64,000 nucleotides of DNA from Frigidibacter mobilis (GTDB lineage: Bacteria; Pseudomonadota; Alphaproteobacteria; Rhodobacterales; Rhodobacteraceae). The stretch is taken from NCBI RefSeq assembly GCF_001620265.1, contig NZ_CP012661.1:620001-684000 (forward strand), written 5' to 3'. Shown here one piece after another: positions 9,303-29,281 of this stretch. How positions within the stretch are numbered: position 1 is the stretch's first letter; each line of letters begins with the position of its first letter. The notes under the pieces were generated by a model. That model was not told where the DNA came from. It made no database searches and worked only from the letters and a program-made list of their open reading frames with translations. The position numbers were made by a program, and so were the translations under genes.

Positions 9303-9440
9303 ATGCGCACTCGGGGTCAGGGCCTGTCGGGAGCGGGCCGAGTCAGCCTGCCGCGCTTGTGGCACCTCCCCCCGCCCGGTGCAAGCCGGGGAGGCGGGCG
9401 AGCCCCGGTCCAGCCTCGCGCCGCTTCCCCCCTTCTTGCT

Positions 9441-9490
9441 GGCCCAAATATCCTCGGGGGGCTGCGGGGGGGCAGAAAGCCCCCCGCCCT
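9441..9490 (+). repeat. GC-rich hairpin repeat between slyX and the AbrB gene
   Basis: The repeat reads GGCCCAAATATCCTCGGGGG followed by a GCGGGGGGGC/GCCCCCCGC hairpin with an AGAAA loop. It shares the AAATATCCT head and G-run/C-run arms with 1887-1930 and 13281-13328. It lies downstream of slyX (minus), so the hairpin may also end that transcript. No other feature is seen in the 9303-9585 gap. Confidence 0.65.
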
Positions 9491-9585
9491 TTCGCTTCGG
9501 GCGAGGCAGAAGGCCCCGCCGTGTCGCGCCCGCCGTGTCGCCCCCGGTGCGCCCGCCCCCCCCCGGGGCTGCCGTCAGCGCCCCC

Positions 9586-9810
9586 TCACCAATGCGGCGG
9601 CCGCTGGTCCGCCAGCGGGATCGTTCCGCCCCCGTCGGTCTCGCGTTCCGCCTCGCGTTGCATCAGCATCGCCACCCGGCGCGTCAGCACGTCGATCTCG
9701 CGCTGCTGGCGGGCGACCACCTCCGACAGCTCGTCCACCGCGCGGCTCAGATGCGCGATCGCCTCCTCGCCGGCCTGAAGCCTCGCTTCCATCGGCTGTT
9801 CCATCGCCAT
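9586..9810 (-). CDS. slyX: SlyX family protein
   Basis: This is a 74-aa acidic coiled-coil protein, [11 protein letters not shown]...[21 protein letters not shown]...[10 protein letters not shown], with the conserved C-terminal [10 protein letters not shown] (family pattern P-x-x-PPHY/W). Length, heptad pattern and tail fit SlyX (about 72 aa in E. coli), a small cytoplasmic protein of unclear function. An internal ATG at 9804 is an alternative start. It is divergent from hisS, and the AT-rich element at 9841-9880 lies between the two genes. Confidence 0.85.
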
Positions 9811-9840
9811 TCCGGCCCCCTATGCCCTACGGTTTCACTT

Positions 9841-9880
9841 TACATATGCTATCCATATGGGTTCTGCATGGTTTCCATAT
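9841..9880 (+). repeat. AT-rich dispersed element, copy A (hisS upstream region)
   Basis: This 40-bp AT-rich island contains TACATATG, ATCCATATGG, CAT and GGTTTCCATAT. About 32 of 40 positions match the reverse complement of 56695-56735. It sits in the slyX-hisS divergent region, about 73 bp before the hisS start, so it could be a protein-binding site or a mobile repeat. The extended open frame through it (from 9857) is not considered coding. Confidence 0.55.
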
Positions 9881-9952
9881 CGCCTGCAAACCCTCGCCGC
9901 TTGTCCCGCGCCCGCCCATCCGCTACACCCCCGCCCGACAGCAAGCGAGGCG

Positions 9953-11459
9953 ATGATGGCCAAGGATAAAGCCCCCCGCAGACCGCGCGCGGAAAGCCCC
10001 AAGGGTTTCCGCGACTATTTCGGCGCCGAGGTGACCGGGCGCCGGGCGATGCTCGATGCCATCGCCGCGGTCTATCATCGCTATGGCTTTGATCCACTTG
10101 AAACTTCTGCCGTGGAAACGGTCGAGGCGCTGGGCAAGTTCCTCCCCGATGTCGACCGCCCGAACGAGGGTGTCTTCGCCTGGCAAGAGGATGCCGAGGG
10201 CGACAGGCCGGGCGACTGGCTGGCGCTGCGCTATGACCTGACGGCCCCGCTCGCCCGCGTCGCCGCCCAGTATCGCAACGACCTCCCCAGCCCCTACCGC
10301 CGCTACGCGATGGGCCCGGTCTGGCGCAATGAAAAGCCGGGGCCGGGGCGGTTTCGTCAATTCTATCAATGTGATGCAGACACCGTCGGGTCTGGCAGCG
10401 TCGCCGCCGACGCCGAGATCTGCGCCATGCTCGCCGACACCCTCGAAGCCGTCGGCATCCCCCGCGGCGACTACATCGTCCGCGTCAACAACCGCAAGGT
10501 GCTGAACGGGGTGATGGAGGTCGCTGGCGTCCTCGATCCCACTGATCCTGAACGCTTTTCCGAAGAGCGCGGCATCGTCCTGCGCGCCATCGACAAGCTG
10601 GATCGCCTCGGGCTGGACGGCGTCCGCGCCCTCCTCGGCGAAGGCCGCAAGGACGAATCCGGCGACTTCACCAAGGGCGCGGGCCTCAGCCCCGATCAGG
10701 CCGAAGTGGTCATGGGCTTCATGGCCGCCAAGCGGGGCACCGGCGCCGCCACCGTCGCCCGCCTGCACGAGCTTGCGGGCGGCTCCGCCATCGGCCTTGA
10801 AGGTGTGCAAGAGCTTGAGATGATTTCGGAAATTCTCGACGCTCAAGGCTACGGCCCCGACCGCATCGTCATCGACCCCTCCGTCGTCCGCGGCCTTGGC
10901 TACTACACCGGCCCGGTGTTCGAGGCGGAACTGACCTTTGAAATCCTCGACGAAAAAGGCCGCAAGCGCCAGTTCGGCTCCGTCGCCGGCGGCGGGCGCT
11001 ATGACGATCTGGTCAAGCGCTTCACCGGCCAGTCTGTTCCCGCGACCGGCGTCTCCATCGGCGTCGACCGCCTGCTCGCCGCCCTGCAAGCCAAGGGCCG
11101 CGCCGGTTCGGCCAGTCCCGGTCCGGTGGTCGTCACGGTGATGGACCGTGACCGCATGGCCGATTATCTGGCGATGGCGGGCGACCTCCGCCGCGCCGGG
11201 ATCCGCGCCGAGGTCTATCTCGGCAACCCCAAGAACTTCGGCAACCAGTTGAAATACGCCGATAAACGCGGCTCCCCCGTCGCGGTGATCCAGGGCGGGG
11301 ATGAGGCGGGCCGCGGCACGGTGGTGCTGAAGGACCTGATCCTCGGTGCCCGCATCGCCGAGGGCGCGAGCCTCGAGGAATGGAAGGCCCGCCCGCCCAG
11401 CAGGAGGTCCCCGCGCCGATCTGGTCGCCGCCGTCCGGGCGATGCTGGAGCAGGGCTGA
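9953..11459 (+). CDS. hisS: Histidyl-tRNA synthetase (3' end disturbed by two apparent frameshifts)
   Basis: HisS is a class II aminoacyl-tRNA synthetase that charges tRNA-His. The start MMAKDK at 9953 is preceded by a short purine-rich site and leads into [16 protein letters not shown]. Class II motif 2 is visible around [29 protein letters not shown]. The histidyl-specific motifs are [11 protein letters not shown] and [17 protein letters not shown], and the C-terminal anticodon-binding domain includes [29 protein letters not shown]. The last 20 or so codons read correctly only if one C is restored near 11388-11399 and one near 11409-11412. This gives a normal ending ([21 protein letters not shown]) with TGA at 11457-11459 overlapping the hisZ ATG. 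As printed, hisS reads straight into hisZ, which is probably an artefact. Confidence 0.93.
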
Positions 11460-16400: not shown

Positions 16401-17168
16401 TCATGGAGATGTGGCGCCCAACGCTGCAGATACGCTTCGGGTCAGCGCGAGCAATCTGCTTACCAGCATCTGGTCGGGGACGCTGGCGATGTGCTGCACG
16501 CTTCCGATTAGGCCGATGCTTGCGACCAGTTTTCCTTCGTAGTTCCAGACCGGGGCCGCGATCACGTTGATGCCCAGCAGGCTCTCTCCCGGGGCAACCG
16601 CGTATCCATTCTGACGGACATTTTCGACCTCGGCGCGGAGGATGTTGGGGTCTGTGATCGTGCGGGGCGTCACCGCGGCCAGGGGGGCATCACAAATCCG
16701 CTCCAAGGCTTCGCGCGGGCCGAACGCAAGGTATACCTTGCCCTGCGCCGAGGCGTGAAGGGAGAGTTGGCTGCCTGGCCTGACGCCGATTTCGATCTGG
16801 TGGTTGCTTGCCACCGTGGCTACCACGAATGCCGATTGCGGCGTCGGCGAACTCAGCACAACGCCAAGTCCCAGTTCGTTACGCGCCGCTTGCATCAAGG
16901 GCAGCGCATTGGCAGCCACATCATCCAGGTTGGGTGCATTGCGCGCCAGAAGCCAGGCCTTCGGGCCAAGCCGGTAGCGGGAAGAGCTGACATCCTGGGT
17001 GACGAAACCATGATCGATCAGCGTTTGCAGGTGCTTGAAGATGGCGCTTTTTGCCATGCCAACATGACCTGCGATCTGGGTCACGCCAGCTCCGTCACTT
17101 TCGAAGGCGACAAACTCCAAGATGCGCAGGCACATGTCTGCCGCCTTCACTCCCTCCTGTGCCGCCAT
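16401..17168 (-). CDS. IclR-family transcriptional regulator
   Basis: This 255-aa regulator has an N-terminal winged helix-turn-helix (AADMCLRILEFVA...GVTQIAGHVGMAKSAIFKHLQTLIDHGFVTQD, residues about 9-60). A C-terminal IclR effector domain follows (LQLSLHASAQGKVYLAFGP-like region, YAVAPGESLLGINVIAAPVWNYEGKLVASIGLIG). I chose the ATG at 17168 (MAAQEGVK) because GGAGGAAGG lies about 10 bases upstream. ATG 17192 and a GTG near 17238 are alternatives. The gene is divergent from the TRAP/catabolic operon, and GAGAAC/GTTCTC half-sites lie between them. It most likely controls that operon and possibly itself, responding to the substrate or an intermediate. Confidence 0.88.
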   Translation of the reverse strand: MAAQEGVKAADMCLRILEFVAFESDGAGVTQIAGHVGMAKSAIFKHLQTLIDHGFVTQDVSSSRYRLGPKAWLLARNAPNLDDVAANALPLMQAARNELGLGVVLSSPTPQSAFVVATVASNHQIEIGVRPGSQLSLHASAQGKVYLAFGPREALERICDAPLAAVTPRTITDPNILRAEVENVRQNGYAVAPGESLLGINVIAAPVWNYEGKLVASIGLIGSVQHIASVPDQMLVSRLLALTRSVSAALGATSP

Positions 17169-17242
17169 CTCGTGCTGACCTTCCTCCCGCATTCGGCGGG
17201 CAAACAACGATTCATTGACTTTCTCTACCACACATTGATTAT

Positions 17243-17269
17243 AGAGAACAGCGTTCTCTGATAGAGAAC
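17243..17269. promoter_or_regulatory. Triple half-site operator for the IclR regulator (inferred)
   Basis: AGAGAAC (17243-17249), GTTCTCT (17253-17259) and AGAGAAC (17263-17269) are spaced exactly 10 bp apart. They form two overlapping perfect palindromes with 3-bp centres (AGC and GAT). A further partial site, TTCTCT, is at 17221-17226. The cluster is about 20-45 bp before the dctP ATG in the divergent iclR-dctP gap, where an IclR dimer or tetramer would be expected to bind. Confidence 0.65.
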
Positions 17270-17288
17270 ATCTTTGGGAGGAGATTCG

Positions 17289-18281
17289 ATGAAACCTGTT
17301 CTGGCGCTTTCTGCGTTGCTGCTCGCCTCGACGTCGCTGACGGCATCTGCCGAACCCGTTACCCTGCGGCTCGGTCATGCTGTCTTCGAGGCGCATCCGA
17401 ACCACGACACCGCCGTTCGCTTCAAGGAAGCCGTCGAGCGCATTTCTGCGGGCGAGGTGAAGATCGAGATCTTTCCCGCACGCCAGCTTGGCGATGTGAA
17501 GGAGCTTATGGAGGGCGTGCAGCTCGGGACGGTCGACATGACGGTCAACTCCTCTTCGGCGCTGGCCACGCTGGAGCCGTCGATGGACGCATTTCAGCTT
17601 CCAGGGGTGATCCCCGACTATGAGGGGTTTGCGAAGCTCGCGGTCTCGGAACCGGCTCGCAGGATCATGGATACGCTGGGCAAGCATGACATGGTTGCTC
17701 TTGGCCTCTACGACGGCGGTCAGCGGCATTTTCTGACTGTAGGCGAGCCGGTGACAGCGATGGAGGGGTTTAAGGGGCTGAAAACCCGCGTGGCGCCGGT
17801 CAAGCTGTTCCTCGACGTCTGGTCGGCAGCCGGCACCAACCCGACGCCAATGGCCTATGGCGAGGTCTATTCCGCGCTGGAAACCGGCACACTGGACGCG
17901 GTGGAGATCAACCTGACATCCATCGAGTCGGAGAAGTTCTTCGAGGTGGCCAAGGGCGTGACGCTGACCGGGCACTACTTCTGGCCGAGCCTTATGCTGG
18001 TGAACAAGGGCGTGTTCGACGGCCTGACGCCCGAGCAGCAGGAGGCCATGCGCGCCGCCGCTCAGGAAATCACCGAGCCGCAGGTCATGGCGGTGAAGGA
18101 GCTCGATGAAAAGGTGCTCGCGCATCTGGCCGAGCTGAAGGTTCCGGTCATTACCCCCGACGCGAGCTTCAAGGCAGCCTTCCGCGACGCGATGAAGCCG
18201 GTGGTGGAAAGATACCGCGCTGCGGATCCGCTGATCGACGCTTTCGCAATCGAGGCGGAAGCGCTCCCGGCCACCAACTGA
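17289..18281 (+). CDS. TRAP transporter substrate-binding protein (DctP family)
   Basis: This periplasmic binding protein captures the imported compound, probably a carboxylate, for the DctQM permease. It is 330 aa with a signal peptide (MKPVLALSALLLASTSLTASA) and starts at the ATG at 17289 behind GGGAGGA. Family features are LRLGHAVFEAHPNHDTAVRFKEAVE, IEIFPARQLGDVKELMEGVQLGTVDM, GLKTRVAP (the Arg corresponding to the carboxylate-binding Arg) and NLTSIESEKFFEVAKGVTLTGHY. It is the first gene of the operon, separated from dctQ by a strong hairpin. Confidence 0.92.
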   Translation: MKPVLALSALLLASTSLTASAEPVTLRLGHAVFEAHPNHDTAVRFKEAVERISAGEVKIEIFPARQLGDVKELMEGVQLGTVDMTVNSSSALATLEPSMDAFQLPGVIPDYEGFAKLAVSEPARRIMDTLGKHDMVALGLYDGGQRHFLTVGEPVTAMEGFKGLKTRVAPVKLFLDVWSAAGTNPTPMAYGEVYSALETGTLDAVEINLTSIESEKFFEVAKGVTLTGHYFWPSLMLVNKGVFDGLTPEQQEAMRAAAQEITEPQVMAVKELDEKVLAHLAELKVPVITPDASFKAAFRDAMKPVVERYRAADPLIDAFAIEAEALPATN

Positions 18282-18286
18282 GCCCT

Positions 18287-18307
18287 GGGCGGGGCCTCGC
18301 CCCGCCC
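18287..18307. terminator. GC-rich hairpin between dctP and dctQ
   Basis: GGGCGGGGC and GCCCCGCCC form a perfect 9-bp stem with a CTC loop a few bases after the dctP stop. No T-run follows. Such a hairpin probably stabilises or partly terminates the message so that more binding protein than permease is made. Confidence 0.5.
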
Positions 18308-18334
18308 GTTCGAACTGGATCGGGAGGAGAACCG

Positions 18335-18820
18335 ATGTCCACTCTGCTGCGCGGCTATCGCATGGCCGCAGAAACCCTCTGCATCCTCGGCATCTGCATC
18401 GTCGCGGTGCTCGGCGGGCTTCAGGTCGTCTTCCGCTACGGCCTCGGATCGTCGCTGGTCTGGTCGGAGGAGGTCATGCGCCTGTCGATGATCTGGACCG
18501 TGATGCTCGGCTCTGGTCTTGCCTATTCACGCGGCCATTTCCTTGGGATGCGCTTTGCCGTCGACGCCCTGCCCGCTGGCCTGCGCCGCGGCTGCGATGT
18601 GCTGGCCGCGCTCTTGGTGCTGGGATTTCTGGGCGCGATTGCCTGGTATGGCAGTGTCTTTGCCTGGAAGACCCGCCTGCAAAGCTCCAGCACGCTTGGC
18701 TATTCGCTGATCTGGCTGAACGGTGCCGTGGTCATCGGTGCGCTGTCGATGGGGGCGCATGTTCTGGCCGAAACACTCTGGGGCAAGGGCGCCCCGCAGG
18801 GCGGCGAGGGCGTGGAATGA
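18335..18820 (+). CDS. TRAP transporter small permease (DctQ)
   Basis: This 161-aa inner-membrane protein has four hydrophobic segments (LCILGICIVAVLGGLQVVFRYGL; LSMIWTVMLGSGLAYSRGHFLGM; VLAALLVLGFLGAIAWYGSVF; LIWLNGAVVIGALSMGAHVLAE). The DctQ hallmarks VVFRYGLGSSLVWSEEVMRL and a central charged RGHFLGMRF are present. It forms the membrane complex with DctM. It starts behind GGGAGGAG, and its end overlaps the dctM ATG by 4 bp. Confidence 0.9.
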   Translation: MSTLLRGYRMAAETLCILGICIVAVLGGLQVVFRYGLGSSLVWSEEVMRLSMIWTVMLGSGLAYSRGHFLGMRFAVDALPAGLRRGCDVLAALLVLGFLGAIAWYGSVFAWKTRLQSSSTLGYSLIWLNGAVVIGALSMGAHVLAETLWGKGAPQGGEGVE

Positions 18821-20103
18821 TCTGGCTGGGATCGCTTTTTTTCTTCACGCTGATCCTCGGCGTGCCGATCGCCTTCGTGCTTGGCATCAGCGGGCTGGGC
18901 TATGTCCTCATGACGGACCAGACCCGGTTTCTGGTCGCCCTGCCGCAGCGCATGGTTGCCGGCATGGACCAGTTCGTGCTGCTGGCCATTCCGCTCTTCG
19001 TGCTGGCGGGCAGCATCATGGATGTGGGCGGGCTCACCAGCCGCCTCGTTGGACTGGCCAATTCGGTGGTCGGCCGGTTTCGTGGCGGGCTTTCGCTGAC
19101 CGCGGTCTGGGGCGCCTTTCTCTTCGGCGGCGTTTCAGGCTCGGCTGCGGCGGATGCGGCGGCGCTCGGCACCGTTCTGGTTCCCGACATGAAGCGTCAG
19201 GGCTATGACCCGGACTATTCCGCGGCGCTTATTGCGGTCTCGTCGCTGATGGCCCCGCTGGTGCCGCCGTCCATCGCCATGATTATCTATGGCGCGCTGT
19301 CCGGCACCTCGATTTCGCAACTGCTGATCGCCGGAATCGTGCCTGGCGTGCTGCTGGCGACGATCCTGTCCTTCTATGCGATCTATATCGCCAGGAGGGA
19401 GAACTACCCGCGGGCCCAGGCGCTGCCGATGGCAGAAATCACCCGCAATGCCGTGCAGGCGCTTCCGGTGATGTTGTTGCCGGTAATCATTGTCGTCGGC
19501 ATCCGTGGCGGGGTCTTCACCGCGACAGAGGCGGCGGCCGTTGCAGCGATCTATGCGCTGCTGGTATCCGGGCTAGTCTATCGCGCGCTCAGCTGGCGCT
19601 TCCTGCGGCAGGCGCTGCTTTCGACCGCGATCATCTCCTCCGCCATCTACATCCTGATCGCGATGGCGAACATCGCGTCCTTCATCTTTGCGCTGGAGCA
19701 GTTGCCGCAAAAAGCGGTGGCGGGACTGACCGGGCTGACGGACAATCCGTATCTTATCTTGCTGATGGTGAACCTCATCCTGCTGGTGCTGGGGATGTTC
19801 CTCGACACCATCGGGGTGCTGATCCTCACCGTTCCGGCGTTGACCGCGATCGGCACGACCTTGGGGATGGACCCGGTGCATCTTGGCGTCATGGTGGTGT
19901 TCAACGTGCTGATCGGCTTCGTGACCCCGCCGGTCGGGCTGTGCCTCTTTGTCATAGCGGGGGTAACCGGGCGGCCGATGGAGTTGATCGCCCTCAAGGC
20001 CCTGCCGATGCTCGGGCTGGCATTTATCGTGCTGGCCATCATCACGCTTCTGCCCGACATTGTGCTGTTCCTGCCGCGCGCCATCGCAGGGGGCGGCGCA
20101 TGA
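18817..20103 (+). CDS. TRAP transporter large permease (DctM)
   Basis: This 428-aa protein has about twelve membrane segments and is the ion-coupled translocating subunit. It shows family motifs AIPLFVLAGSIMDVGGLTSRLVGLANSVVGRFRGGLSL, FGGVSGSAAADAAALGTVLVPDMKRQGYDPDYSAALIA, LMAPLVPPSIAMIIYG and GFVTPPVGLCLFVIAGVTG. It overlaps both dctQ and the following flavoprotein gene (ATGA), indicating one polycistronic message. Confidence 0.93.
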   Translation: MIWLGSLFFFTLILGVPIAFVLGISGLGYVLMTDQTRFLVALPQRMVAGMDQFVLLAIPLFVLAGSIMDVGGLTSRLVGLANSVVGRFRGGLSLTAVWGAFLFGGVSGSAAADAAALGTVLVPDMKRQGYDPDYSAALIAVSSLMAPLVPPSIAMIIYGALSGTSISQLLIAGIVPGVLLATILSFYAIYIARRENYPRAQALPMAEITRNAVQALPVMLLPVIIVVGIRGGVFTATEAAAVAAIYALLVSGLVYRALSWRFLRQALLSTAIISSAIYILIAMANIASFIFALEQLPQKAVAGLTGLTDNPYLILLMVNLILLVLGMFLDTIGVLILTVPALTAIGTTLGMDPVHLGVMVVFNVLIGFVTPPVGLCLFVIAGVTGRPMELIALKALPMLGLAFIVLAIITLLPDIVLFLPRAIAGGGA

Positions 20104-21176
20104 GCCGGCTGGAAACCCGCATCGGCCGGCTGCGGCTGAAAAACCCGGTCATCGCCGCTGCCGGCGAGCATATGATCGACGCTGCCGGCATCCGCTCGGC
20201 GATCCTTGCCGGGGCAGGGGCGGTGGTCGGCAAATCCACCAACGAGTCCGAGGCCGCGAAGGATCAGCTGACAAGGGCGGAATACGTGGCCCTTGATTGC
20301 GACTGGCGGCCGGTTTCCTGGGGGCCAGAAGCCCCGCCGGTGACGGTGCTGACCCGGTCCGGCCTGTCGCCGCTGGGTTTTAGCGACTGGCTGGCGCAAT
20401 GCGTGGCGATGGACAGGTTCGCACGGGAGCACGATTGCCTTTATGTGCCTTCGCTGATCCTCGCGGCCCCGGAGCCTGCCATACAGATGGCGCGAGCTGT
20501 AGAGGCTGCCGGCCTGAAGGTCCTGGAGTTCAACATCGGCACGCCCTATGCGAGCCAAGCCGCAAAGGGCGCCGTTGCGACGGAGCTTTCCCCGGAACGC
20601 GTCGGAATGCTTGCCCGGATGATGGTCGAGGCCATCGACATTCCCGTCTGGGTCAAGATCACCGGCCAGAGTGAGCGGGTACCCGATCTCGCGGCGGCCG
20701 CCTTTGCCGCTGGCGCGGATTCGGTGGTGATGGCGGGAAGGGCGCTCGGGATGCTGCCTGATCTCGAGACGATGGCGCCGGTGCTCCATACCAGTTGCGG
20801 CATTGGTGGCTGGTGGAACCTGCCGCTCACCTGTCACTGGCTGGCGAGTACCCGCGCGGCGTTGGGGCCCCAGCCCGCCCTGATCGGCATCAATGGCGCG
20901 ACGAACGGCGCCGATGTGGCGCGCATGATCCTGGCCGGGGCCTCGGGGGTGGGTCTCGCGTCGGAGGTCATGCTGCGGGGCTGGCCGGTGCTGACCGAGG
21001 CGATAGCGGCGCTCGAGGCCTATTGCGCCGAAAAGGGCCTGTGCGTGGCCGAGCTGGTCGGCCGCGCCGCGGATTCCCGCAGGCGCTTTGCCGAGATGCC
21101 GCAACTGGATGCGCAATGGCGCGCCTTTATTCCCGCGCCGCTGCCCGGTGCAATCAAGGAGACCGAACATGACTGA
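20100..21176 (+). CDS. Dihydroorotate / dihydropyrimidine dehydrogenase-like flavoprotein
   Basis: The protein has 358 aa and an FMN TIM-barrel fold like dihydroorotate dehydrogenase or the PreA half of dihydropyrimidine dehydrogenase. N-terminal LKNPVIAAAGEH is the family start. VLEFNIGTPY replaces the usual ExNxSCPN-type signature. IPVWVKITGQ supplies a conserved Lys. GGWWNLPLTCHWLASTR is the equivalent of the GGLSGxALxP strand. IGINGATNGADVARMILAGASGVGLASEVM is the FMN-phosphate region. The family reduces or oxidises a C=C next to a carbonyl or amide, usually in a ring. The substrate here is unknown, and operon context rules against pyrimidine biosynthesis. It starts within the dctM stop and overlaps the next gene by 8 bp. 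Confidence 0.8.
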   Translation: MSRLETRIGRLRLKNPVIAAAGEHMIDAAGIRSAILAGAGAVVGKSTNESEAAKDQLTRAEYVALDCDWRPVSWGPEAPPVTVLTRSGLSPLGFSDWLAQCVAMDRFAREHDCLYVPSLILAAPEPAIQMARAVEAAGLKVLEFNIGTPYASQAAKGAVATELSPERVGMLARMMVEAIDIPVWVKITGQSERVPDLAAAAFAAGADSVVMAGRALGMLPDLETMAPVLHTSCGIGGWWNLPLTCHWLASTRAALGPQPALIGINGATNGADVARMILAGASGVGLASEVMLRGWPVLTEAIAALEAYCAEKGLCVAELVGRAADSRRRFAEMPQLDAQWRAFIPAPLPGAIKETEHD

Positions 21177-22071
21177 CCTTTCAAGCCGCGTCGACGCCTT
21201 CATGCAGGGCGCGGTCGACCTCCATATCCATTCCGGTCCGTCTCTGCACCCGCGGAAGGTCGATCATATCGAAGTGCTCCGCGCTGCCGATGAGGCCGGG
21301 ATGCGCGCGATCTTGTTGAAGGACCATTACTATCCGACCATGCCGATCACCCGGCTGATGAACGACAACCTCGGCTACAAGACCGAGGCCATTGGCGCCA
21401 TCGTGCTGAACAATCCGGTTGGCGGGCTGAATCCCTCCGCGGTGGACTATGCGCTGAAGCAGGGCGCACGGGTGGTCTGGATGGCCACAGCCCATGCGAA
21501 AAACCACATGGAGCACGAGGCGAAAGAGGCCGACTTCAAGAACAAGTTCCCCGTGAACTCCAGGAAGACCGTGGCGGCCATCCCGGCGACACTTACAGAT
21601 GACAGCGGCGCCGTGCGTGACGAGGTGAAGCTGATCCTCGACCTGATCGCCGAGGCCGACGCCGTGGTCTCTGCCGGCCATCACCACATCAGCGAGTGCT
21701 TCCCCTTCTATGAAGAGGCGAAGGCGCGCGGGGTGAAGCGGCTGTTCCTCAACCACCCGACCTATGTGAACGAGGGCAACCTCGAGGATATCCGGTCGCT
21801 GGTCGGCATGGGGGTGAAGATGGAGCATTCGATCTGCATGTTCGTGCCCTCGACCTTCCATCTGTTCGATGACACCCATCTGCAGGAGGTCATCGCAGCA
21901 GCGGGTGTCGAAAACACCTTCTTCGGCTCCGATCTCGGGCAGAGGAACAATCCCACCCCGGTGGAGGGGTTCCGGCAGATCATCGAACTGCTGATCCGGC
22001 TGGGCTATGACGATGCTCAGATCCGGCTGATGACCTCGACCATCGCTGCCGACCTGGCGGGGCTCGCATGA
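21169..22071 (+). CDS. DUF6282 family protein, amidohydrolase-like
   Basis: This 300-aa protein has the pattern of a metal-dependent amidohydrolase TIM barrel. DLHIHSGPS gives an HxH pair (H19, H21), ILLKDHYY gives K51/H53, SAGHHHISE and FLNHPTYVNEG give further histidines, and FFGSDLGQRNNP gives a late Asp. These positions fit the metal-ligand order of the superfamily, but the name rests on the DUF6282 family and no reaction is established. I infer hydrolysis of a cyclic amide, lactone or similar intermediate. It is translationally coupled to the flavoprotein upstream (8-bp overlap) and to the aldolase downstream (ATGA). Confidence 0.75.
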   Translation: MTDLSSRVDAFMQGAVDLHIHSGPSLHPRKVDHIEVLRAADEAGMRAILLKDHYYPTMPITRLMNDNLGYKTEAIGAIVLNNPVGGLNPSAVDYALKQGARVVWMATAHAKNHMEHEAKEADFKNKFPVNSRKTVAAIPATLTDDSGAVRDEVKLILDLIAEADAVVSAGHHHISECFPFYEEAKARGVKRLFLNHPTYVNEGNLEDIRSLVGMGVKMEHSICMFVPSTFHLFDDTHLQEVIAAAGVENTFFGSDLGQRNNPTPVEGFRQIIELLIRLGYDDAQIRLMTSTIAADLAGLA

Positions 22072-22814
22072 CCGATCTGCGTGCCCGTGTCAGGGCAGGG
22101 GAGCGGCTGACCGGCTGTTTCGTGAAGACCCCGAGCCCGCAGGTCGTGGAACTGCTGGGGATGGCGGGGATGGATTTCGTCGTCGCCGACCGCGAACATG
22201 CGCCGATCGGCACTGGTGCGCTGGACCTGATGGCGCTGGCAGGCCGCGCGGTTGGTCTGCCGCTACTGATCCGCTCGCGCACTGCCGAGGCTGCCGAGAT
22301 CTGGCCTGCGCTCGACATGGGCTGCAGCGGCGTAATGGTGCCGCATGTGCGCACCGCAGCCGAGGCGCGGGCGGTGGCTGGCGCGATGAAATACGCGCAC
22401 GGACGCGGGTTCTCGCCATCGGGGCGCGCCGGTGGCTATGGCTCGCTGCCGGCAGTGGACTATCGCCGCGCGCAGGACGAGACCACCGTGTTTCTGGCGC
22501 AGATCGAGGATGCCGCGGCGCTGGAGCATCTGGACGAGATCGCGGCGGTGCCCGAGGTCGACGCGTTGTTCGTCGGGCCCGCCGATCTGTCGCTCTCGCT
22601 CGGCTGTGCCGCGGATGCGCCAGAGCTGGCGGCGGCGATCGGGCGGGTGACGCAAGCCGCGCACCGGGTGCGCAAGGCGGCAGGGCTTTTCGTCACCGAT
22701 CCGGCCAGCATTGCCGCCCATGCCGCGCGCGGTGTCACCGTATTCGTCTGCGGCTCCGATCAGGGGCTGATACTCGGCGGGGCCCGCCGGCTGATGGCCG
22801 CGGCACGCGCCTAA
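22068..22814 (+). CDS. HpcH/HpaI family aldolase
   Basis: This 248-aa class II pyruvate aldolase is of the 2-oxo-acid type (hydroxyketoacid to pyruvate plus aldehyde). It shows DFVVADREHAPIG, LLIRSR, ALDMGCSGVMVPHVRTAAEARAVAGAMKYAHGRGFSPSGRAGGYG, the metal-ligand Glu in FLAQIEDAAAL and the Asp in LFVGPADLSLSLG. These are family hallmarks, and the exact substrate cannot be read. Its ATG lies in the DUF6282 stop codon. Confidence 0.85.
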   Translation: MTDLRARVRAGERLTGCFVKTPSPQVVELLGMAGMDFVVADREHAPIGTGALDLMALAGRAVGLPLLIRSRTAEAAEIWPALDMGCSGVMVPHVRTAAEARAVAGAMKYAHGRGFSPSGRAGGYGSLPAVDYRRAQDETTVFLAQIEDAAALEHLDEIAAVPEVDALFVGPADLSLSLGCAADAPELAAAIGRVTQAAHRVRKAAGLFVTDPASIAAHAARGVTVFVCGSDQGLILGGARRLMAAARA

Positions 22815-22829
22815 AATCAGGAGCAACTT

Positions 22830-23177
22830 ATGAACATCCATCAAGTAGACTGGTCCACCCAGGACTGGAAAACCATCCGGCCGGGCGTCGAGCAGAAGGC
22901 CTTCTCCGGCCAGGGCGCGACCATCGCGCTGCACCGGCTGCAGCCGGGGCACGAGCCGAAGCCGCACAAGCACCCGAACGAGCAGATCGCCTACATCGTC
23001 TCGGGCACCGTCGATTTCCACGTGGCGGCCTGCGTGACCCGGCTGGGTCCGGGCGGTATCATCGTGATCCCTGGCGAGGTGATGCACCATGCCGTCGTCG
23101 TGGGTGATGAAGAGGTAATCAACCTCGATGTGTTCACCCCCGCGCGCCCGGAATATGCGCCGCTGCCCGATGTGTAA
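22830..23177 (+). CDS. Cupin-domain protein
   Basis: This 115-aa single-cupin protein has motif 1 as PGHEPKPHKHPNEQIAYIVSG (two His and a Glu in the metal pattern) and motif 2 as PGEVMHHAVVV. It lies 15 bp after the aldolase behind AGGAGC. Small cupins in such operons act as isomerases, epimerases or oxygenases, or assist ring-opened intermediates. No specific role can be assigned. Confidence 0.85.
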   Translation: MNIHQVDWSTQDWKTIRPGVEQKAFSGQGATIALHRLQPGHEPKPHKHPNEQIAYIVSGTVDFHVAACVTRLGPGGIIVIPGEVMHHAVVVGDEEVINLDVFTPARPEYAPLPDV

Positions 23178-23271
23178 GCCGAAGCCGCCCGCCGCGCTGG
23201 ACCTCATCCCCTCTGTCCACAGGTGTGCCGCATGGCCCGCCTCTCGTTCCTGCATCTCGGAGATCCCTCTC

Positions 23272-24699
23272 ATGACCGACCTTCTGTTCATCGACGGCCA
23301 GTGGACCGCTGGCTCCGGCACCCGTCGGGGCGATGTCTTCAACCCGGCCACGGGCGGGGTGATCGGATCGGTGCCTTTCGCCGAGGCTGTCGATCTCGAT
23401 CGCGCGCTTGCTGCGGCGGGCCGCGCATTTCCCGGCTGGGCCGCGACTTCGGCGCATGACCGGGCGATCCTGCTGAAGAAGTCGGCGAACATAGCGCGGG
23501 ACAACGCGGAAGAAATGGCGCAGGCGATCAGCCGCGAACAGGGCAAGCCCTTGTCCGAGGCGCGGATGGAGGCTGGCGGCGCAGGCGATCATATCGATTG
23601 GTATGCCGAAGAGGCCCGCCGCAGCTACGGCCGCATCATTCCCTCGCGCGCGCCGCAGGTGATGCAGAGCGTGATCCTCGAACCCGTGGGTCCGGTCGCG
23701 GCGTTCAGCCCGTGGAACTTCCCCGTCGGTCAGCTGGTGCGCAAGATCGCCGGCGCTCTGGCCGCTGGCTGCACGATCATCGCAAAGGGGCCGGAAGAGA
23801 CGCCGACCTGCATCGCACTTCTGGTGCGCTGCTTCGAGGAGGCCGGCATTCCGGCAGGGGTGGTGAACCTCGTCTTCGGGGTCCCGGCCGAGATCTCCGC
23901 GCATCTGATCCCGTCGCCGGTGATCCGCAAGGTTTCGTTCACCGGCTCGGTGCCGGTGGGGCGGCATCTGGGGGCGATGGCCGCGACCCATCTGAAGCGC
24001 ACGACGATGGAGCTTGGCGGCCATGCGCCCTTCATCGTCTTCGACGATGCCGACGCCGAGACTGTCAGCAGCCTCGGCGTCGGGCTCAAGTTCCGCAACG
24101 CCGGTCAGGTCTGCGCGTCGCCGACCCGCTTTCTGGTGCAGGAGGCGCTGTTCGACGGCTTCCTTGCCCGCTTCGCGCAGAAGGCGGAGGCGTTGACGCT
24201 GGGCGCTGCCGAGGAGCCCGGTGTGCAGATGGGGCCGCTGGCCCATGCGCGGCGGCTGCAGGCGATGCAGGACTATGTGGCGGACGCCGTGGCGCAGGGC
24301 GCGCGTCTGGTGACGGGCGGGGCACGGCATGGCAACGAGGGCTGGTTCTTCCAGCCGACGGTGCTCGCGGATGTTCCGCTTTCGGCGCGCATCATGACCG
24401 AAGAGCCGTTCGGGCCCATCGCTGTGGTCAACCGCTTTGCCACGGTGGAGGAGGCGATCGGTGAGGCCAATCGGCTGCCCTACGGCCTTGCCGCCTTCGG
24501 CTTTTCCAACCGTATCGAGCGCACCCATGCGATGGTGCGCTGGGTGGAAACCGGCATGTTGTCGATCAACCATTTCGGCCTTGCCGCACCCGAGACGCCC
24601 TTCGGCGGCATCAAGGATTCGGGTCATGGCTCCGAGGGGGGCTCCGAGGGGATCATGGCCTATCTCACCCCCAAGTTCGTCTCGCAGCGTAACGGCTGA
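23272..24699 (+). CDS. NAD(P)-dependent aldehyde dehydrogenase (succinate-semialdehyde dehydrogenase-like)
   Basis: This 475-aa ALDH-superfamily enzyme oxidises an aldehyde to an acid. It shows GPVAAFSPWNFPVGQLVRKIAGALAAGCTIIAKGPEETP, KVSFTGSVPVGRHL (nucleotide-binding turn), the catalytic-base Glu in TTMELGGHAPFIVF, the catalytic Cys in FRNAGQVCASPTRFLV, and EEPFGPIAVVNRF. The ATG at 23272 begins MTDLLFIDGQW, the usual N-terminal strand. It most likely acts after the GMC oxidoreductase or on an aldehyde released by the aldolase. Confidence 0.92.
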   Translation: MTDLLFIDGQWTAGSGTRRGDVFNPATGGVIGSVPFAEAVDLDRALAAAGRAFPGWAATSAHDRAILLKKSANIARDNAEEMAQAISREQGKPLSEARMEAGGAGDHIDWYAEEARRSYGRIIPSRAPQVMQSVILEPVGPVAAFSPWNFPVGQLVRKIAGALAAGCTIIAKGPEETPTCIALLVRCFEEAGIPAGVVNLVFGVPAEISAHLIPSPVIRKVSFTGSVPVGRHLGAMAATHLKRTTMELGGHAPFIVFDDADAETVSSLGVGLKFRNAGQVCASPTRFLVQEALFDGFLARFAQKAEALTLGAAEEPGVQMGPLAHARRLQAMQDYVADAVAQGARLVTGGARHGNEGWFFQPTVLADVPLSARIMTEEPFGPIAVVNRFATVEEAIGEANRLPYGLAAFGFSNRIERTHAMVRWVETGMLSINHFGLAAPETPFGGIKDSGHGSEGGSEGIMAYLTPKFVSQRNG

Positions 24700-24702
24700 G
24701 CG

Positions 24703-26280
24703 ATGGAGAGCTTCGACTATATCGTGGTTGGCGCAGGTTCGGGTGGTGCGGTGGTGGCGCGCCGCTTGGTTGAGGCCGGCAAATCCGTCCTGCTGCTTGA
24801 GGCGGGGCCGAGCGACCGGGTGCCTTTCGTCCATATTCCCGGTGCTTTCGTCAAGGTGATCGGCACGAAACGGACCTGGGCCTATGCGACCGAGCCGGAG
24901 CCGGGTGCCCAGGGGCGTGTGATGCATGTGCCGCAGGGCCGAATGCTGGGTGGCAGCTCCTCGGTCAATGCGATGATCTATATCCGCGGCGATGCGCAGG
25001 ACTATGACGACTGGGTGAAGGCAGGGGTCTCCGGCTGGGGTTACGCAGATGTGCTGCCTTATTTCCGCAAGGCTGAATCCAACCAGCGCCTGGCTGACGC
25101 CTATCACGGCACAGACGGGCCATTGCGGGTCTCCGATCCCTCCTACCGTCATCCGTTGGCCTATGCCTTCCTGCGCGCGGCGCAGCAAACGGGGCTGCAG
25201 CTGACCCAGGATTTCAACGGCGCCCGGCAGGAGGGGGTCGGGTTCTTCCAGACCACGACCTTTGACGGGCGGCGCGGATCAACAGCTGTGTGCTACCTTG
25301 ATCCGGTGCGCAGGAATCCGCGGCTGACGATCCGCACCGGGGCACATGTCGAACGGCTGATCCTCAAGGCCGACGAGGTGTGCGGCGTGGTGTGTTGCAT
25401 GGGCAACGGCCAGAGGAAGAGCTTTACGGCCCGTCATGAAGTGGTGCTGTCGGCGGGCGCTCTGGCCTCGCCCAAGATCCTGATGCTGTCCGGAATCGGC
25501 GCCGAAGCCGATCTGGCCCCGCACGGGATTGCTGTGGCGCATCATCTGTCGGGTGTCGGGCAGGGATTCCAAGACCACGTCGCGGCCTCGGTTTATGGCC
25601 GGCTGCGCGAGCCGGTCGGCGTTTACGGCGCCGACAAGGGGCTGCGTGCCGTCCGCCACATGCTGCAATATCTTCTGACCCGGACCGGGCTGCTTACCTC
25701 TAACGTGATCGAGTGCGGCGGCTTTGTGGATACCGGCGGCGCGGGGCGCCCCGATGTGCAACTGCATGTGGTGCCGACCATGCTGGGCGACGTTGGCCGG
25801 CCCGCGCCGGCCGGCCACGGTATCTCGCTCAATCCCTGCTGCCTACGGCCAACCTCTCGGGGGTCGATGACCCTGCGCAGCGCCGATCCGCGCGATCTGC
25901 CGGTGCTCCGGGCCAACAACCTGACGACGCGGGAGGATGTGGAGACGGTGATGCGCGGCGTTAGCCTCTGCCGCCGGATCCTGAAGGCTCCGGCGCTGGC
26001 CGCGATGGTGCGCGAGGAACTGGCTCCCGGTCCGGCAGGCGACACGGCCGAGGGGCTGGAGGCGCATGCACGGCACTTTGCCAAGACCGTCTATCACCCA
26101 TCTTGCACAGCGCGCATGGGCACCGACGCGCTGGCAGTGACCGATCCGGAGCTGCGGGTCCGTGGCCTGAAACGGCTTCGTATCGCCGATGCCTCGGTTA
26201 TGCCGAAACTGGTCAGTGGCAACACCAACGCGCCCTGCGTCATGATCGGGGAACGCTGTGCCGCGTTCTTGCTGGGCTGA
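24703..26280 (+). CDS. GMC-family FAD-dependent oxidoreductase (choline dehydrogenase-like)
   Basis: The protein has 525 aa. The FAD dinucleotide motif is DYIVVGAGSGGAVVARRLVEAGKSVLLLEAGP (residues 4-35). GRMLGGSSSVNAMIYIRGDAQDYDDW is GMC signature 1, and VVLSAGALASPKILMLSGIG is signature 2. The C-terminal active-site region is KTVYHPSCTARMG with SGNTNAPCVMIGERCA. Such enzymes oxidise an alcohol to an aldehyde and pass electrons to the respiratory chain or oxygen. It is the last gene of the TRAP operon, 3 bp after the aldehyde dehydrogenase, and the two probably form an alcohol-to-acid pair. Confidence 0.92.
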   Translation: MESFDYIVVGAGSGGAVVARRLVEAGKSVLLLEAGPSDRVPFVHIPGAFVKVIGTKRTWAYATEPEPGAQGRVMHVPQGRMLGGSSSVNAMIYIRGDAQDYDDWVKAGVSGWGYADVLPYFRKAESNQRLADAYHGTDGPLRVSDPSYRHPLAYAFLRAAQQTGLQLTQDFNGARQEGVGFFQTTTFDGRRGSTAVCYLDPVRRNPRLTIRTGAHVERLILKADEVCGVVCCMGNGQRKSFTARHEVVLSAGALASPKILMLSGIGAEADLAPHGIAVAHHLSGVGQGFQDHVAASVYGRLREPVGVYGADKGLRAVRHMLQYLLTRTGLLTSNVIECGGFVDTGGAGRPDVQLHVVPTMLGDVGRPAPAGHGISLNPCCLRPTSRGSMTLRSADPRDLPVLRANNLTTREDVETVMRGVSLCRRILKAPALAAMVREELAPGPAGDTAEGLEAHARHFAKTVYHPSCTARMGTDALAVTDPELRVRGLKRLRIADASVMPKLVSGNTNAPCVMIGERCAAFLLG

Positions 26281-26656: not shown

Positions 26657-27463
26657 TCACCCTCGCCCGTAGAAATCCGACTGCGGGTCCGACAGCACCA
26701 TCGCGCGCAGCCGGTCCCACAGGTGCTGGCGCAACCGGGCGAAGTCCGGCCCGTGCCGCGGGTCGGCCTGCCAGCGCGGGCGCGGGAACGGCACCGGCAG
26801 GACCTGGTCGATGCGCCCCGGCCGCGGCGACATCAGCACGATCCGGTCCGCCAGCATCAGCGCCTCGTCGACGCTGTGGGTGACGAAGACGATACCGGGC
26901 GCCGGCCCCTCGGCCCCGGCGATCAGCCGCATGGTTTCCATCTGCATCAGCTCGCGCGATTGCGCGTCGAGCGCGGCAAAGGGCTCGTCCATCAGCAGCA
27001 GCCGTGGCTGGCAGGCCAGCGCCCGGGCCAGCGCCACCCGCTGCCGCATCCCGCCTGACAGCGCGGCGGGATAGGCGCCCGCAAACTTCGCCAGCCCCAC
27101 CAGCTCCAGATAGCGCGCCACCCGCGCCTCGCGCTGCGGGGCGGGTAGGGCGTGTAGCGCAAAGCCGATGTTCTGCGCCACCGTCTTCCACGGCAGCAGC
27201 CGGTACCCCTGGAACACGATGGCGCTGTCCTGCCCGGGCACCGGCGCGCGCCCGGCCACCCGCACCGTGCCCGGTTCGGGGTGCAGCAGCCCGGCGATGA
27301 TGCGCAAGAGCGTGGTCTTGCCGCAGCCGGAAGGCCCCAGTACGACCACGACCTCACCGGCGGCGACCGTCAGATCCACCCCTTGCAGCACCGGCGCCGG
27401 GCTGCCGTCAAAGTGCCATGACACGCCACTCAGTGTGACCAGCGCGCCGCCTGTTCCTGTCAT
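26657..27463 (-). CDS. ABC transporter ATP-binding protein (nitrate/sulfonate/taurine type)
   Basis: This 268-aa SsuB/TauB-like ATPase starts MTGTGGALVTLSGVSWHF at the ATG at 27463, which overlaps the stop of the binding protein. It has Walker A GPSGCGKTTLLR, Q-loop FQGYRLLPWKTV, signature ALSGGMRQRVALARAL, Walker B LLLMDEPFAALD and the H-loop FVTHSVDEA. It energises import by the permease at 28535-29281. It is the last gene of the unit permease-binding protein-ATPase. Confidence 0.93.
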   Translation of the reverse strand: MTGTGGALVTLSGVSWHFDGSPAPVLQGVDLTVAAGEVVVVLGPSGCGKTTLLRIIAGLLHPEPGTVRVAGRAPVPGQDSAIVFQGYRLLPWKTVAQNIGFALHALPAPQREARVARYLELVGLAKFAGAYPAALSGGMRQRVALARALACQPRLLLMDEPFAALDAQSRELMQMETMRLIAGAEGPAPGIVFVTHSVDEALMLADRIVLMSPRPGRIDQVLPVPFPRPRWQADPRHGPDFARLRQHLWDRLRAMVLSDPQSDFYGRG

Positions 27464-28479
27464 CGTGTCAGCGCATCCGATCCGTCCGTGGTGCCGATCC
27501 GGGCCAGCACAGCCTCCACCGGGCCGAAGTCCGTCCAAGCCTCCAGCGGCGCCGGCGTCACGCCCTTGAAGTCCTCGCTGGCGTAAAGCCAGCCGGCCGA
27601 GAACTCCAGTTCCTCGCGCTGCAGCCCGCCATTCACGCTCCACGATCCGGCAAAGGCGGCGCCCAGCTTTTGCAGGTCTGCCTCGGCCACATCGGGACGC
27701 GCCTTTTGCATCGCCGCGACCCACAGCTGGGGATCGGCGGCAAAGTCGCGTGCCGCCAGCGTCAGCGCCTCGATCACCGCCTCGACCTCGGGGCCGCGGC
27801 TGGCGAGCGTCTCGGCCGTCACGGCGTTCACCTTCGACACCACCGGCGCCGCGCGGTAATAGGCGTCCACATCCACCAGCACCTGCACCGACCCGGCGGC
27901 CTGTGCCTCGATCGCGGTATAGGTGCCGATCGACATGGTGGTGGCGTCGATCTGGTCGGCCAGCAGCGCCTGCGCCCGCGCGCTCGGTTGGCCAAGCGCC
28001 ACCATCTGCAACGAGCCGGTATCGACCCCGGCGGCAGTCAGCACCTGCAGGCTCAGCGTGTGGTCAAGGCTGCCGATCCGGCCGATGCCGAACCGCTTGC
28101 CGGCCAGATCGCCCGCGCTGCCGATGCCGTTCTGCGCGGCGATCAGGAAGGGCAGCGACTTGTTGGGCGACATCACCGCGCGCAGATCATCGGCCCCCTG
28201 CGCCACCGATTGCAGCAGGGATTCCACGGCGACATTCGCCATCTCGCCCTCGCCGGATCGCAGTGCCGCCATTGCCATCGGCGTCTGCTGCACGCGCACC
28301 AGCTCCACCTCGACGCCCGCGCGTTCGAAATATCCCTCCTGCAGGGCCAGATCCATCACCGAGTTCGGCACCAGCGGCGCCTCCATATCGGTCACGATCA
28401 GCCGGAACGGCTCTGCCGCCGCCGGGCCTGCCAGCGCCGCCGTGGCCAGCGCCAGTGCGAAAAGTCTTGAGGTCTTCAT
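27460..28479 (-). CDS. ABC transporter substrate-binding protein (NMT1/SsuA-like)
   Basis: This 339-aa periplasmic binding protein has a signal peptide (MKTSRLFALALATAALAGPAAA) and a family pattern of EGYFERAGVEVELVRVQQTPMAMAALRSGEGEMANVAVESLLQSVAQG and GDLAGKRFGIGRIGSLDHTLSLQVLTAAGVD. Relatives bind sulfonates, nitrate or pyrimidine precursors, and the ligand here is unknown. GGAGGAG precedes the ATG. It is divergent in orientation from gfa, but its permease lies in between, so a C1 link is only positional. Confidence 0.88.
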   Translation of the reverse strand: MKTSRLFALALATAALAGPAAAEPFRLIVTDMEAPLVPNSVMDLALQEGYFERAGVEVELVRVQQTPMAMAALRSGEGEMANVAVESLLQSVAQGADDLRAVMSPNKSLPFLIAAQNGIGSAGDLAGKRFGIGRIGSLDHTLSLQVLTAAGVDTGSLQMVALGQPSARAQALLADQIDATTMSIGTYTAIEAQAAGSVQVLVDVDAYYRAAPVVSKVNAVTAETLASRGPEVEAVIEALTLAARDFAADPQLWVAAMQKARPDVAEADLQKLGAAFAGSWSVNGGLQREELEFSAGWLYASEDFKGVTPAPLEAWTDFGPVEAVLARIGTTDGSDALTR

Positions 28480-28534
28480 CGTGTTTCTCCTCCCGATGTG
28501 TTGCCCCGGCGTCTCCCCCGCCGGGCCGGTCCTG

Positions 28535-29281
28535 TCACGTCGTCTCTTGCGGGCGCCAGCGGGTCAGCCGGCGTTCGGCCAGCCGCAGCCCCTCCGTCAC
28601 CGTCACCCCGATCAGCGACAGGGTCAGCACGACGACGAAATATTCCGCCATCTGGAACCGGCTGCCATAGAGCGCCAGAAGCCCGCCAAGCCCGGTGACG
28701 GCGGTGTAAAGCTCTGCCACCACCGTGTTGATAAGCCCGATGGTCGCCCCCAGCCGGATCCCGGTCAGCAGGAAGGGCAGGGTTCCCGGCAGCACGATAT
28801 GCCAGAAGATCCGCCCCTGCGAGGCGCCCGTGGCCCGCGCCATTTCCACGAGGTCGCGGTCGGTGTTCAGCACGCCGGTATAGGTGTTCAGGATCACCGG
28901 CATCACCGCGCCCAGGAAGATGATGAGCGTCTTCGCCTCGACCCCCAGCCCCAGCAGGGTGATGATGAGGGGAATGAACGCCACCCGCGGCGTCGCCGCC
29001 AGCGCATAGACGAAGATGTCGAGCGTGCGCCCGAACGGCCGCCACAGCCCCATCGCCGCGCCAAGCGCGATCCCCGCCACCGCCGCCAGCAGGGTGCCGG
29101 TGGCATAGACGCGCAGGCTGGCCATCAGCGCCGGGGCCAGCCGGTCCTCGGCCAGCATCCGCCCCGCTGCCGCCGCGGTCTCCAGCGGCGAGGCGAACAG
29201 CCCCCGCGGGACCTGCACCGAGGCGACCCACCACAGCAGCACCAGCCCCGCCAGGAAGCCAAGGCGCAGTAGCGCGATCAT
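28535..29281 (-). CDS. ABC transporter permease (SsuC/TauC-like)
   Basis: This 248-aa inner-membrane protein has six or so membrane segments. It begins MIALLRLGFLAGLVLLWWVASVQVPRGLF and has the cytoplasmic EAA loop VEMARATGASQGRIFWHIVLPGTLPFLLTGIRLGATIGLINTVVAELYTAVTGLGG. It is the first gene of the unit. The 249-bp gap to gfa holds the divergent promoters, but no clear operator is visible. Confidence 0.9.
   Translation of the reverse strand: MIALLRLGFLAGLVLLWWVASVQVPRGLFASPLETAAAAGRMLAEDRLAPALMASLRVYATGTLLAAVAGIALGAAMGLWRPFGRTLDIFVYALAATPRVAFIPLIITLLGLGVEAKTLIIFLGAVMPVILNTYTGVLNTDRDLVEMARATGASQGRIFWHIVLPGTLPFLLTGIRLGATIGLINTVVAELYTAVTGLGGLLALYGSRFQMAEYFVVVLTLSLIGVTVTEGLRLAERRLTRWRPQETT

Follow-up and report, generated by a model that had tools for sequence, protein, structure and literature searches.

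The lower pathway of protocatechuate 4,5-cleavage comprises a lactonase (LigI), a tautomerase, a hydratase (LigJ/GalB) and an aldolase (LigK/CHA); reductive pyrimidine/orotate degradation uses PreA or dihydropyrimidine dehydrogenase (DPD) plus dihydropyrimidinase or dihydroorotase, and homoprotocatechuate degradation employs the HpaI aldolase and then succinate-semialdehyde dehydrogenase (SSADH). Here we analyse a locus that shares elements with each of these, in a 64,000-nt window of Frigidibacter mobilis (NZ_CP012661.1, positions 620,001–684,000 of the forward strand; all coordinates are positions in this window unless a locus is named). It consists of a nine-gene operon and a divergent iclR-family regulator gene, the operon encoding a tripartite ATP-independent periplasmic (TRAP) transporter (dctP, dctQ and dctM), a dihydroorotate dehydrogenase (DHOD)-like flavoprotein, a DUF6282 protein, an HpcH/HpaI-type aldolase (HpcH), a small cupin, an aldehyde dehydrogenase (ALDH) and a GMC-family FAD-dependent alcohol dehydrogenase/oxidase. 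Open reading frame and family scans recover all ten genes in the order given by the initial annotation, with every named Pfam family above its cut-off in the operon proteins. Comparison with related loci shows a core of DHOD-like protein, DUF6282, cupin and often HpcH, joined by an exchangeable entry module. We regard the operon as real, conserved, probably co-regulated and, as far as our searches reach, uncharacterised; the best overall explanation, to which we give roughly an even chance, is that it is dedicated to the catabolism of a single organic acid and regulated by IclR.

Searching species genomes with a DUF6282 alignment gave 36 loci, annotated plasmid matches were added and genes were mapped by tblastn. 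Counts refer to 39 loci (L022–L055 and L058–L062) with a DUF6282 sharing at least 65% identity with that of the window; L056 (partial, with no match mapped), L057 and L063–L075 (too distant) are left out. A gene is counted if it lies within 10 kb at a set identity cut-off (for example, 50% for DHOD, 55% for cupin, 50% for bicupin and 58% for ALDH). The same arrangement is found in other species, with DUF6282 at 68–90% identity, and is not due to chance. The co-occurrence check proposed in the initial annotation was run, and the gene set proved to be conserved together, with DHOD within 10 kb of DUF6282 in 36 of the 39 loci and directly adjoining it in 33. L027 and L028 hold a DHOD of 55–56% identity, 4 kb from DUF6282 on the other strand, and the DHOD-like match of L035 (Paracoccus cavernae, 8876–9322 of that locus) breaks off early in its frame, perhaps through a frameshift or assembly error. 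The three loci without a counted DHOD are L038, L050 and L052; L038 opens on a contig edge, where a partial DHOD adjoins DUF6282, and in that genome DHOD pieces lie on two contigs. Across 295 genomes of the host's family (host included; only seven candidates scored per genome), DHOD orthologues above 600 bits occur in three, each adjoining DUF6282 (the host and two that are probably the L022 and L023 genomes), and a fourth match (177 bits) comes from a genome in which DUF6282 has no match. Far outside the family, a metagenome-assembled Clostridiales genome retains DUF6282–cupin–HpcH at 32, 41 and 35% identity.

Overlaps of 4–8 bp had been said to join most genes of the operon. The sizes are right (dctQ/dctM 4 bp, dctM/DHOD 4 bp, DHOD/DUF6282 8 bp and DUF6282/HpcH 4 bp), but only four of the eight junctions overlap and 'most' was an overstatement; at the remaining four the genes stand 53, 15, 94 and 3 bp apart, 94 bp being the largest gap. 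We found no characterised operon matching the gene set among the NCBIfam models listed or in literature searches, which returned no publication mentioning DUF6282 or PF19799 by those names and none on the joint gene set (at least four of six components). Among the matches listed (for ALDH, 25 of 41 models), no NCBIfam equivalog model reaches its cut-off for any operon protein.

The regulator gene (16401–17192 or 16401–17168, alternative starts, minus strand) encodes HTH_IclR (41.7 bits) and IclR_C (108.6 bits) domains, both above their cut-offs; BhcR, the best NCBIfam model among the matches listed, stays below its own (132.7 versus 350 bits). Next to it lie a sigma-70-type promoter-like site (TTGACT-16-GATTAT, 17215–17242, plus strand, 9 of 12 positions matching) and, directly 3′ of the −10 box, an operator-like site of three half-sites (GAGAAC-N3-GTTCTC-N5-GAGAAC, 17244–17269, plus strand). 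The promoter-like site is weak alone (four such sites in the region versus 1.6, s.d. 1.4, in shuffles); TTGAC-like boxes, read by eye, also stand 5′ of the operator-like site in relatives. The triple half-site is perfect and unique in the host genome, where the next-best match has three mismatches. The short palindrome alone shows no enrichment (five host-genome sites versus five for a reversed control) and is useless for finding a regulon; as it is no rarer than its control, the third half-site matters. In relatives, the triple half-site recurs in the gap that separates iclR from the divergent operon, with 0–2 mismatches in 15 of 24 such gaps. Genome-wide searches of 12 relatives, selected because their loci carry the operator-like site, found 13 sites with at most two mismatches, and all 13 lie at DUF6282-system loci, so no further site is present elsewhere in those genomes; the reversed pattern gave none. 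L037 carries two operator-like sites (5.6 and 7.65 kb), 5′ of dctQ and 5′ of dctP in a rearranged operon. A local iclR gene with a conserved palindromic site at the promoter, its predicted target, places the system in the IclR-controlled class, and the control first claimed for it gains support from this host-unique candidate operator. Because the operator-like site abuts the −10 box, IclR is likely a repressor of the operon.

In two marine genomes (L050 and L052) the system is split into an iclR–dctPQM–DHOD unit and, elsewhere, a DUF6282–HpcH–cupin unit. The DHOD orthologue (64% identical) is in the first unit, away from DUF6282. A perfect triple half-site stands about 120 bp 5′ of the second unit, with no iclR mapped within the 20 kb examined and, in L050, a GntR-type regulator upstream; the first unit carries a site variant with a four-base first spacer (one base longer) and one mismatch. 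That two unlinked units carry near-identical sites is the strongest indication of a single pathway formed by these proteins; co-inheritance and probable co-regulation thus persist despite unlinking.

DUF6282 (21169–22071, plus strand; PF19799, 226.9 bits versus a cut-off of 26.8) had been assigned a hydrolytic role, and both its AlphaFold2 model (predicted local distance difference test, pLDDT, 94.4), an amidohydrolase-type TIM barrel, and its fold matches support a hydrolase fold. Metal ligands in the amidohydrolase superfamily follow a set pattern, HxH after strand 1, His after strands 5 and 6 and Asp after strand 8, which DUF6282 reproduces; its HxH, His170, His195 and Asp254 are invariant in 67 of 67 sequences. 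Fold matches (Foldseek, VIA) include dipeptidases, 2-pyrone-4,6-dicarboxylate hydrolase, lactonases and dihydroorotase, the 2-pyrone-4,6-dicarboxylate hydrolases being among the Foldseek matches. DUF6282 is probably a metal-dependent amidohydrolase-fold enzyme. LigI, the 2-pyrone-4,6-dicarboxylate hydrolase, is of the Amidohydro_2 family; a Pfam scan of DUF6282 at E 0.001 returned only PF19799 and no Amidohydro_2 match, which sets it outside the LigI family. Homologues number 568 in one protein search and 599 in another (the sets may overlap) and extend to Firmicutes, Thermus and haloarchaea. In Thermus, the gene row that holds DUF6282 also encodes an extradiol-type dioxygenase, a GntR regulator, a PIG-L protein and an aldolase of RraA type whose annotation is 4-carboxy-4-hydroxy-2-oxoadipate aldolase, suggesting that DUF6282 there takes the place of a pyrone lactonase.

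The adjoining flavoprotein (20100–21176, plus strand; PF01180 DHO_dh, 45.9 bits versus a cut-off of 27) is not the housekeeping DHODH, since the other PF01180 proteins of the host genome are separate from it (266.5 and 77.8 bits). Lys44, Asn144, Lys185 and GxxG, the FMN-barrel residues of the DHOD fold, are invariant in 18 of 18 sequences, and flavin mononucleotide (FMN) binding is predicted. In the same 18, Thr (17) or Val (1) replaces the catalytic Cys of the N-x-S-C-P loop, the loop reading N-I-G-T-P with Thr. Redox of a ring C=C, as first proposed for this protein, stays conjectural, and the catalytic Cys of DHODH and DPD is missing. A thymine/uracil- or orotate-type pathway was rejected: besides the missing Cys, the operon has no downstream ureido enzyme.

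HpcH (22068–22814, plus strand; PF03328, 92.1 bits versus a cut-off of 25) has 2-dehydro-3-deoxygalactarate aldolase as its closest PDB entry (1dxe, 101.9 bits) and scores below cut-off against the NCBIfam equivalogs for 2-dehydro-3-deoxyglucarate aldolase (125.7 versus 393), HpaI (121.2 versus 368.8) and KDR aldolase (86.1 versus 441). The small cupin (22830–23177, plus strand; Cupin_2, 51.8 bits) matches PDB entry 4e2g (48.5 bits), KdgF (5fq0, 44.5 bits, E 1.3e-10) and BacB (3h7j, 43.2 bits); KdgF and BacB are non-oxidative enzymes. A cupin or a bicupin, never both, is present in 38 of the 39 loci, the bicupin replacing the small cupin in 15. This bicupin is a 300-residue protein 3′ of HpcH in Paracoccus, unannotated and with no Pfam match at 1e-3; read by eye, it has a cupin-like HHHxxxEQ stretch and a VDIFCPPRLDF end resembling that of the small cupin. 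In L065 (Mameliella alba, 9289–10187 of that locus) the bicupin is both annotated and read in two parts and may be a broken gene.

The last two genes of the operon encode an ALDH of alpha-ketoglutaric semialdehyde dehydrogenase (KGSADH)/SSADH type (23272–24699, plus strand; PF00171, 505.1 bits) and the GMC enzyme (24703–26280, plus strand; PF00732, 177 bits; PF05199, 124.5 bits). The closest solved ALDHs are 9zh8, named 'aldehyde dehydrogenase' (531 bits), and the KGSADH 5x5t (527 bits); 5vbf, named NAD-dependent SSADH, scores 512 bits and Escherichia coli SSADH 3jz4 382 bits, and the GucD KGSADH model of NCBIfam is missed by far (323.3 versus a cut-off of 770). The Azospirillum enzyme is the subject of a published study (PMC5385487). 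The closest solved GMC protein is choline dehydrogenase (9lq0, 380.6 bits). Fourteen of the 39 loci have a class III aminotransferase of omega-transaminase type (best match 5ghf), four loci holding both it and GMC. ALDH occurs in 18 of the 19 loci with either enzyme and in none of the 20 with neither (one of these, L023, ends at a contig edge just past the cupin). As ALDH appears only alongside GMC or the aminotransferase, it belongs to an exchangeable entry step, where it probably handles the aldehyde that either would produce. The alcohol-to-aldehyde-to-acid oxidation first ascribed to GMC and ALDH is thus upheld as a pair of entry steps; the side-chain alcohol proposed with it need not be an alcohol, given the aminotransferase in 14 loci.

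Other substrates for this module were considered and set aside. Polyamine catabolism was raised by the aminotransferase and by histone-deacetylase (HDAC)-family proteins, and a γ-aminobutyrate-type route would presumably need no such core. For vitamin B6 degradation, pyridoxine 4-oxidase (3t37/4ha6) scores 218 bits against 380.6 for choline dehydrogenase and the operon lacks the other B6 genes; for 5-hydroxymethylfurfural (HMF) or furoate, HMF oxidase (4udp) reaches only 197 bits against GMC. The HDAC-family proteins, acetylpolyamine amidohydrolase-like, lie inside the amine-type clusters L041 (11422–12450 of that locus) and L025 (12049–13071), the former also having a SnoaL_2 protein. Seven further amine-type loci (L038, L039, L042, L062 and the Mesorhizobium loci L043, L046 and L047) carry an extra RidA-family protein, an Amidohydro_2 protein and a polyamine-type ABC transporter; the L062 Amidohydro_2 copy scores 170 bits against 4-sulfomuconolactone hydrolase (cut-off 500).

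Uptake is assigned to the TRAP genes dctP (17289–18281; PF03480, 230.9 bits), dctQ (18335–18820; PF04290, 91 bits) and dctM (18817–20103; PF06808, 360.4 bits), all on the plus strand, the solute-binding protein and the small and large permease families being adjacent and each above cut-off. In SiaP, the Arg equivalent to DctP Arg167 binds the substrate carboxylate. DctP Arg146 and Arg167, the latter within a KTR motif, are invariant in 15 of 15 rows, so a carboxylate substrate is likely and the import of an acid, as first claimed, is supported. At 30–33% identity the nearest solved DctP relatives are too distant to assign the ligand. Published TRAP ligands include hexuronates, orotate and pantoate (PMC5812351), and co-crystals with D-glucuronate are reported for some solute-binding proteins (PMC7660916).

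From these elements we assemble the following scheme. The TRAP transporter would import a carboxylate bearing a primary alcohol, GMC would convert CH2OH to CHO and ALDH would convert CHO to COO−, yielding a dicarboxylate; rhizobial versions would start from the matching amine through the class III aminotransferase, and Paracoccus versions would take up the acid directly. The DHOD-like flavoprotein would then reduce or oxidise a ring or conjugated C=C, DUF6282 would hydrolytically open a cyclic ester or amide, the KdgF/BacB-like cupin would tautomerise the enol or hemiketal product, and HpcH, where present, would cleave the resulting hydroxy-oxo acid to pyruvate or a similar 2-oxo acid. Neither a coenzyme A (CoA) ligase nor a recognised oxygenase turned up in a family scan of the operon genes, and the core chemistry is therefore probably independent of CoA and O2. 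That an omega-alcohol or omega-amine of the imported acid is oxidised to a diacid before hydrolytic opening, whatever the compound, has in our judgement about as good a chance of holding as of failing. More tentatively, and with the balance tilted against it, DUF6282 may found a new family of ring-opening metallohydrolases in a widespread CoA- and oxygenase-free module, into which different entry modules would channel a single natural acid in its alcohol, amine and acid forms and whose DHOD-fold flavoprotein works without the usual Cys base.

Several observations weigh against this scheme. Because the loci have a common origin, L032 and L061 even representing two strains of the same species, the counts are descriptive, not independent. 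Among family genomes holding DUF6282, 13 of 16 have no DHOD match at 1e-40; their DUF6282 copies are 25–47% identical to the window's and belong to other cluster types. The DHOD-like protein departs from the N-x-x-C-P loop that carries the catalytic Cys of DHODH and DPD. HpcH is missing from 12 of the 39 loci, the 12 genomes concerned having only relatives of 35–44% identity (seven) or none (five) at E 1e-30, so the aldol cleavage to pyruvate first proposed is weakened and not universal. L027 holds neither cupin nor bicupin, the aminotransferase locus L026 has only a 37% identical ALDH, the operator-like site deviates at 3–5 positions in 9 of the 24 iclR gaps, and its strict pattern fails at the iclR–TRAP–DHOD half of L050 and L052. 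In Thermus the last gene of the DUF6282 row encodes a DUF1932/NAD_binding_2 protein, not the LigC-type dehydrogenase of the described pathway. Nor is a pyrone hydrolase among the best 50 VIA matches of DUF6282; its fold also suits peptide or amide hydrolysis, with dipeptidases ranking first (Foldseek, VIA). On this last evidence DUF6282 could be a peptide or amide hydrolase, the operon degrading an acyclic amide or dipeptide-like acid and the DHOD-like protein and cupin acting on the released fragment; set against the Thermus gene row and the Foldseek matches to 2-pyrone-4,6-dicarboxylate hydrolases, we consider this unlikely, if the foremost of the competing explanations.

We find it improbable that ALDH acts downstream, oxidising a semialdehyde released by the HpcH aldolase, with GMC a separate activity. 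Such an order recalls HpaI and SSADH, which HpcH (121.2 bits) and ALDH (446.3 bits) resemble, both below the model cut-offs, and the named NAD-dependent SSADH 5vbf is among the closest solved ALDHs. The distribution speaks otherwise: ALDH is absent from all 20 loci without GMC and aminotransferase, 14 of which retain HpcH (including L023, at its contig edge), and is present in six loci without HpcH (L041, L043, L044, L046, L047 and L055). A sugar acid of uronate type as the substrate is likewise improbable in our estimate. It would unite a uronate TRAP transporter with a KdgF-like cupin and a keto-deoxy-acid aldolase: the cupin resembles KdgF, HpcH resembles 2-dehydro-3-deoxyglucarate aldolase (125.7 bits, cut-off 393) and close solved DctP relatives (4x8r, 4pf8, 4n8y and 4xfe) are putative uronate binders. 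Those relatives are only 30–33% identical, DHOD and DUF6282 have no role that we know of in uronate routes, and the Pfam scan matched no dehydratase or isomerase family in the operon. Kojic acid or another hydroxymethyl-4-pyrone, the former being converted to comenic acid before ring reduction and opening, would fit GMC and ALDH acting on a ring CH2OH as well as the bacterial ring reduction of kojic acid, but is very improbable, because DctP keeps its carboxylate-binding Arg and kojic acid has no carboxylate, no natural amine that would correspond to it in the versions with an aminotransferase is known to us, and a literature search found nothing on its degradation genes.

DUF6282 also occurs in other settings. 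A second, DHOD-less cluster type (L067, L068, L079 and L082–L085) combines it with an HpcH-type aldolase, bicupin, IclR and a diverged TRAP transporter (31–50% identity); in these clusters of other Rhodobacteraceae tblastn found no DHOD within the stretches examined, L067 has a Flavodoxin_2 reductase in its place, and similar-sized genes adjoin dctM in several others. L076 (10400–19000 of that locus), from the same genus as the window, has three diverged DUF6282 genes within 8 kb, accompanied by a TctC-type binding protein, a flavin monooxygenase-like protein and IclR. In L072 (Fusobacterium vincentii), a MatC/CitMHS-type dicarboxylate carrier comes after DUF6282, and a cupin-domain protein is encoded about 4 kb upstream. 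Within the window, ABC transporter genes lie 3′ of the operon (26657–29281, minus strand; an NMT1/THI5-like binding protein, a permease and an ATPase, the last by reading only); these were set aside as a second transporter of the operon, being on the opposite strand.

The comparison gives DUF6282 pathway partners, a regulator with a candidate operator, a proposed order of steps and a testable role as a ring-opening hydrolase, and it shows that Paracoccus denitrificans (L030), which is tractable, carries a version of the operon. If the scheme is true, many Alphaproteobacteria would share one overlooked substrate, a compound that occurs as alcohol, amine and acid. Against the described systems, the operon is like protocatechuate 4,5-cleavage in its predicted amidohydrolase-fold ring opening, tautomerisation and aldol cleavage, with Thermus DUF6282 in such a cluster; it differs in having no extradiol dioxygenase or hydratase, no Amidohydro_2 match for DUF6282, an aldolase of HpcH rather than RraA type, and a flavoprotein and alcohol oxidation. 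As in reductive pyrimidine/orotate degradation, a DHOD/PreA-family flavoprotein adjoins an amidohydrolase-fold enzyme, yet the catalytic Cys, a PreT/PyrK partner and ureidopropionase are absent, and cupin and aldolase come after. With the homoprotocatechuate HpaI/SSADH and GarL/KDR aldolase pathways it shares the HpcH/HpaI aldolase family, whereas its equivalog scores are far below cut-off and the aldolase is dispensed with in 12 of 39 relatives. Uronate TRAP/KdgF systems resemble it in the PDB neighbours of DctP, the KdgF-like cupin and the IclR-family regulator, and differ in that identities are low and the core enzymes are others. A regulated TRAP catabolic operon is of a known kind; the core enzyme set makes this one a new form of it.

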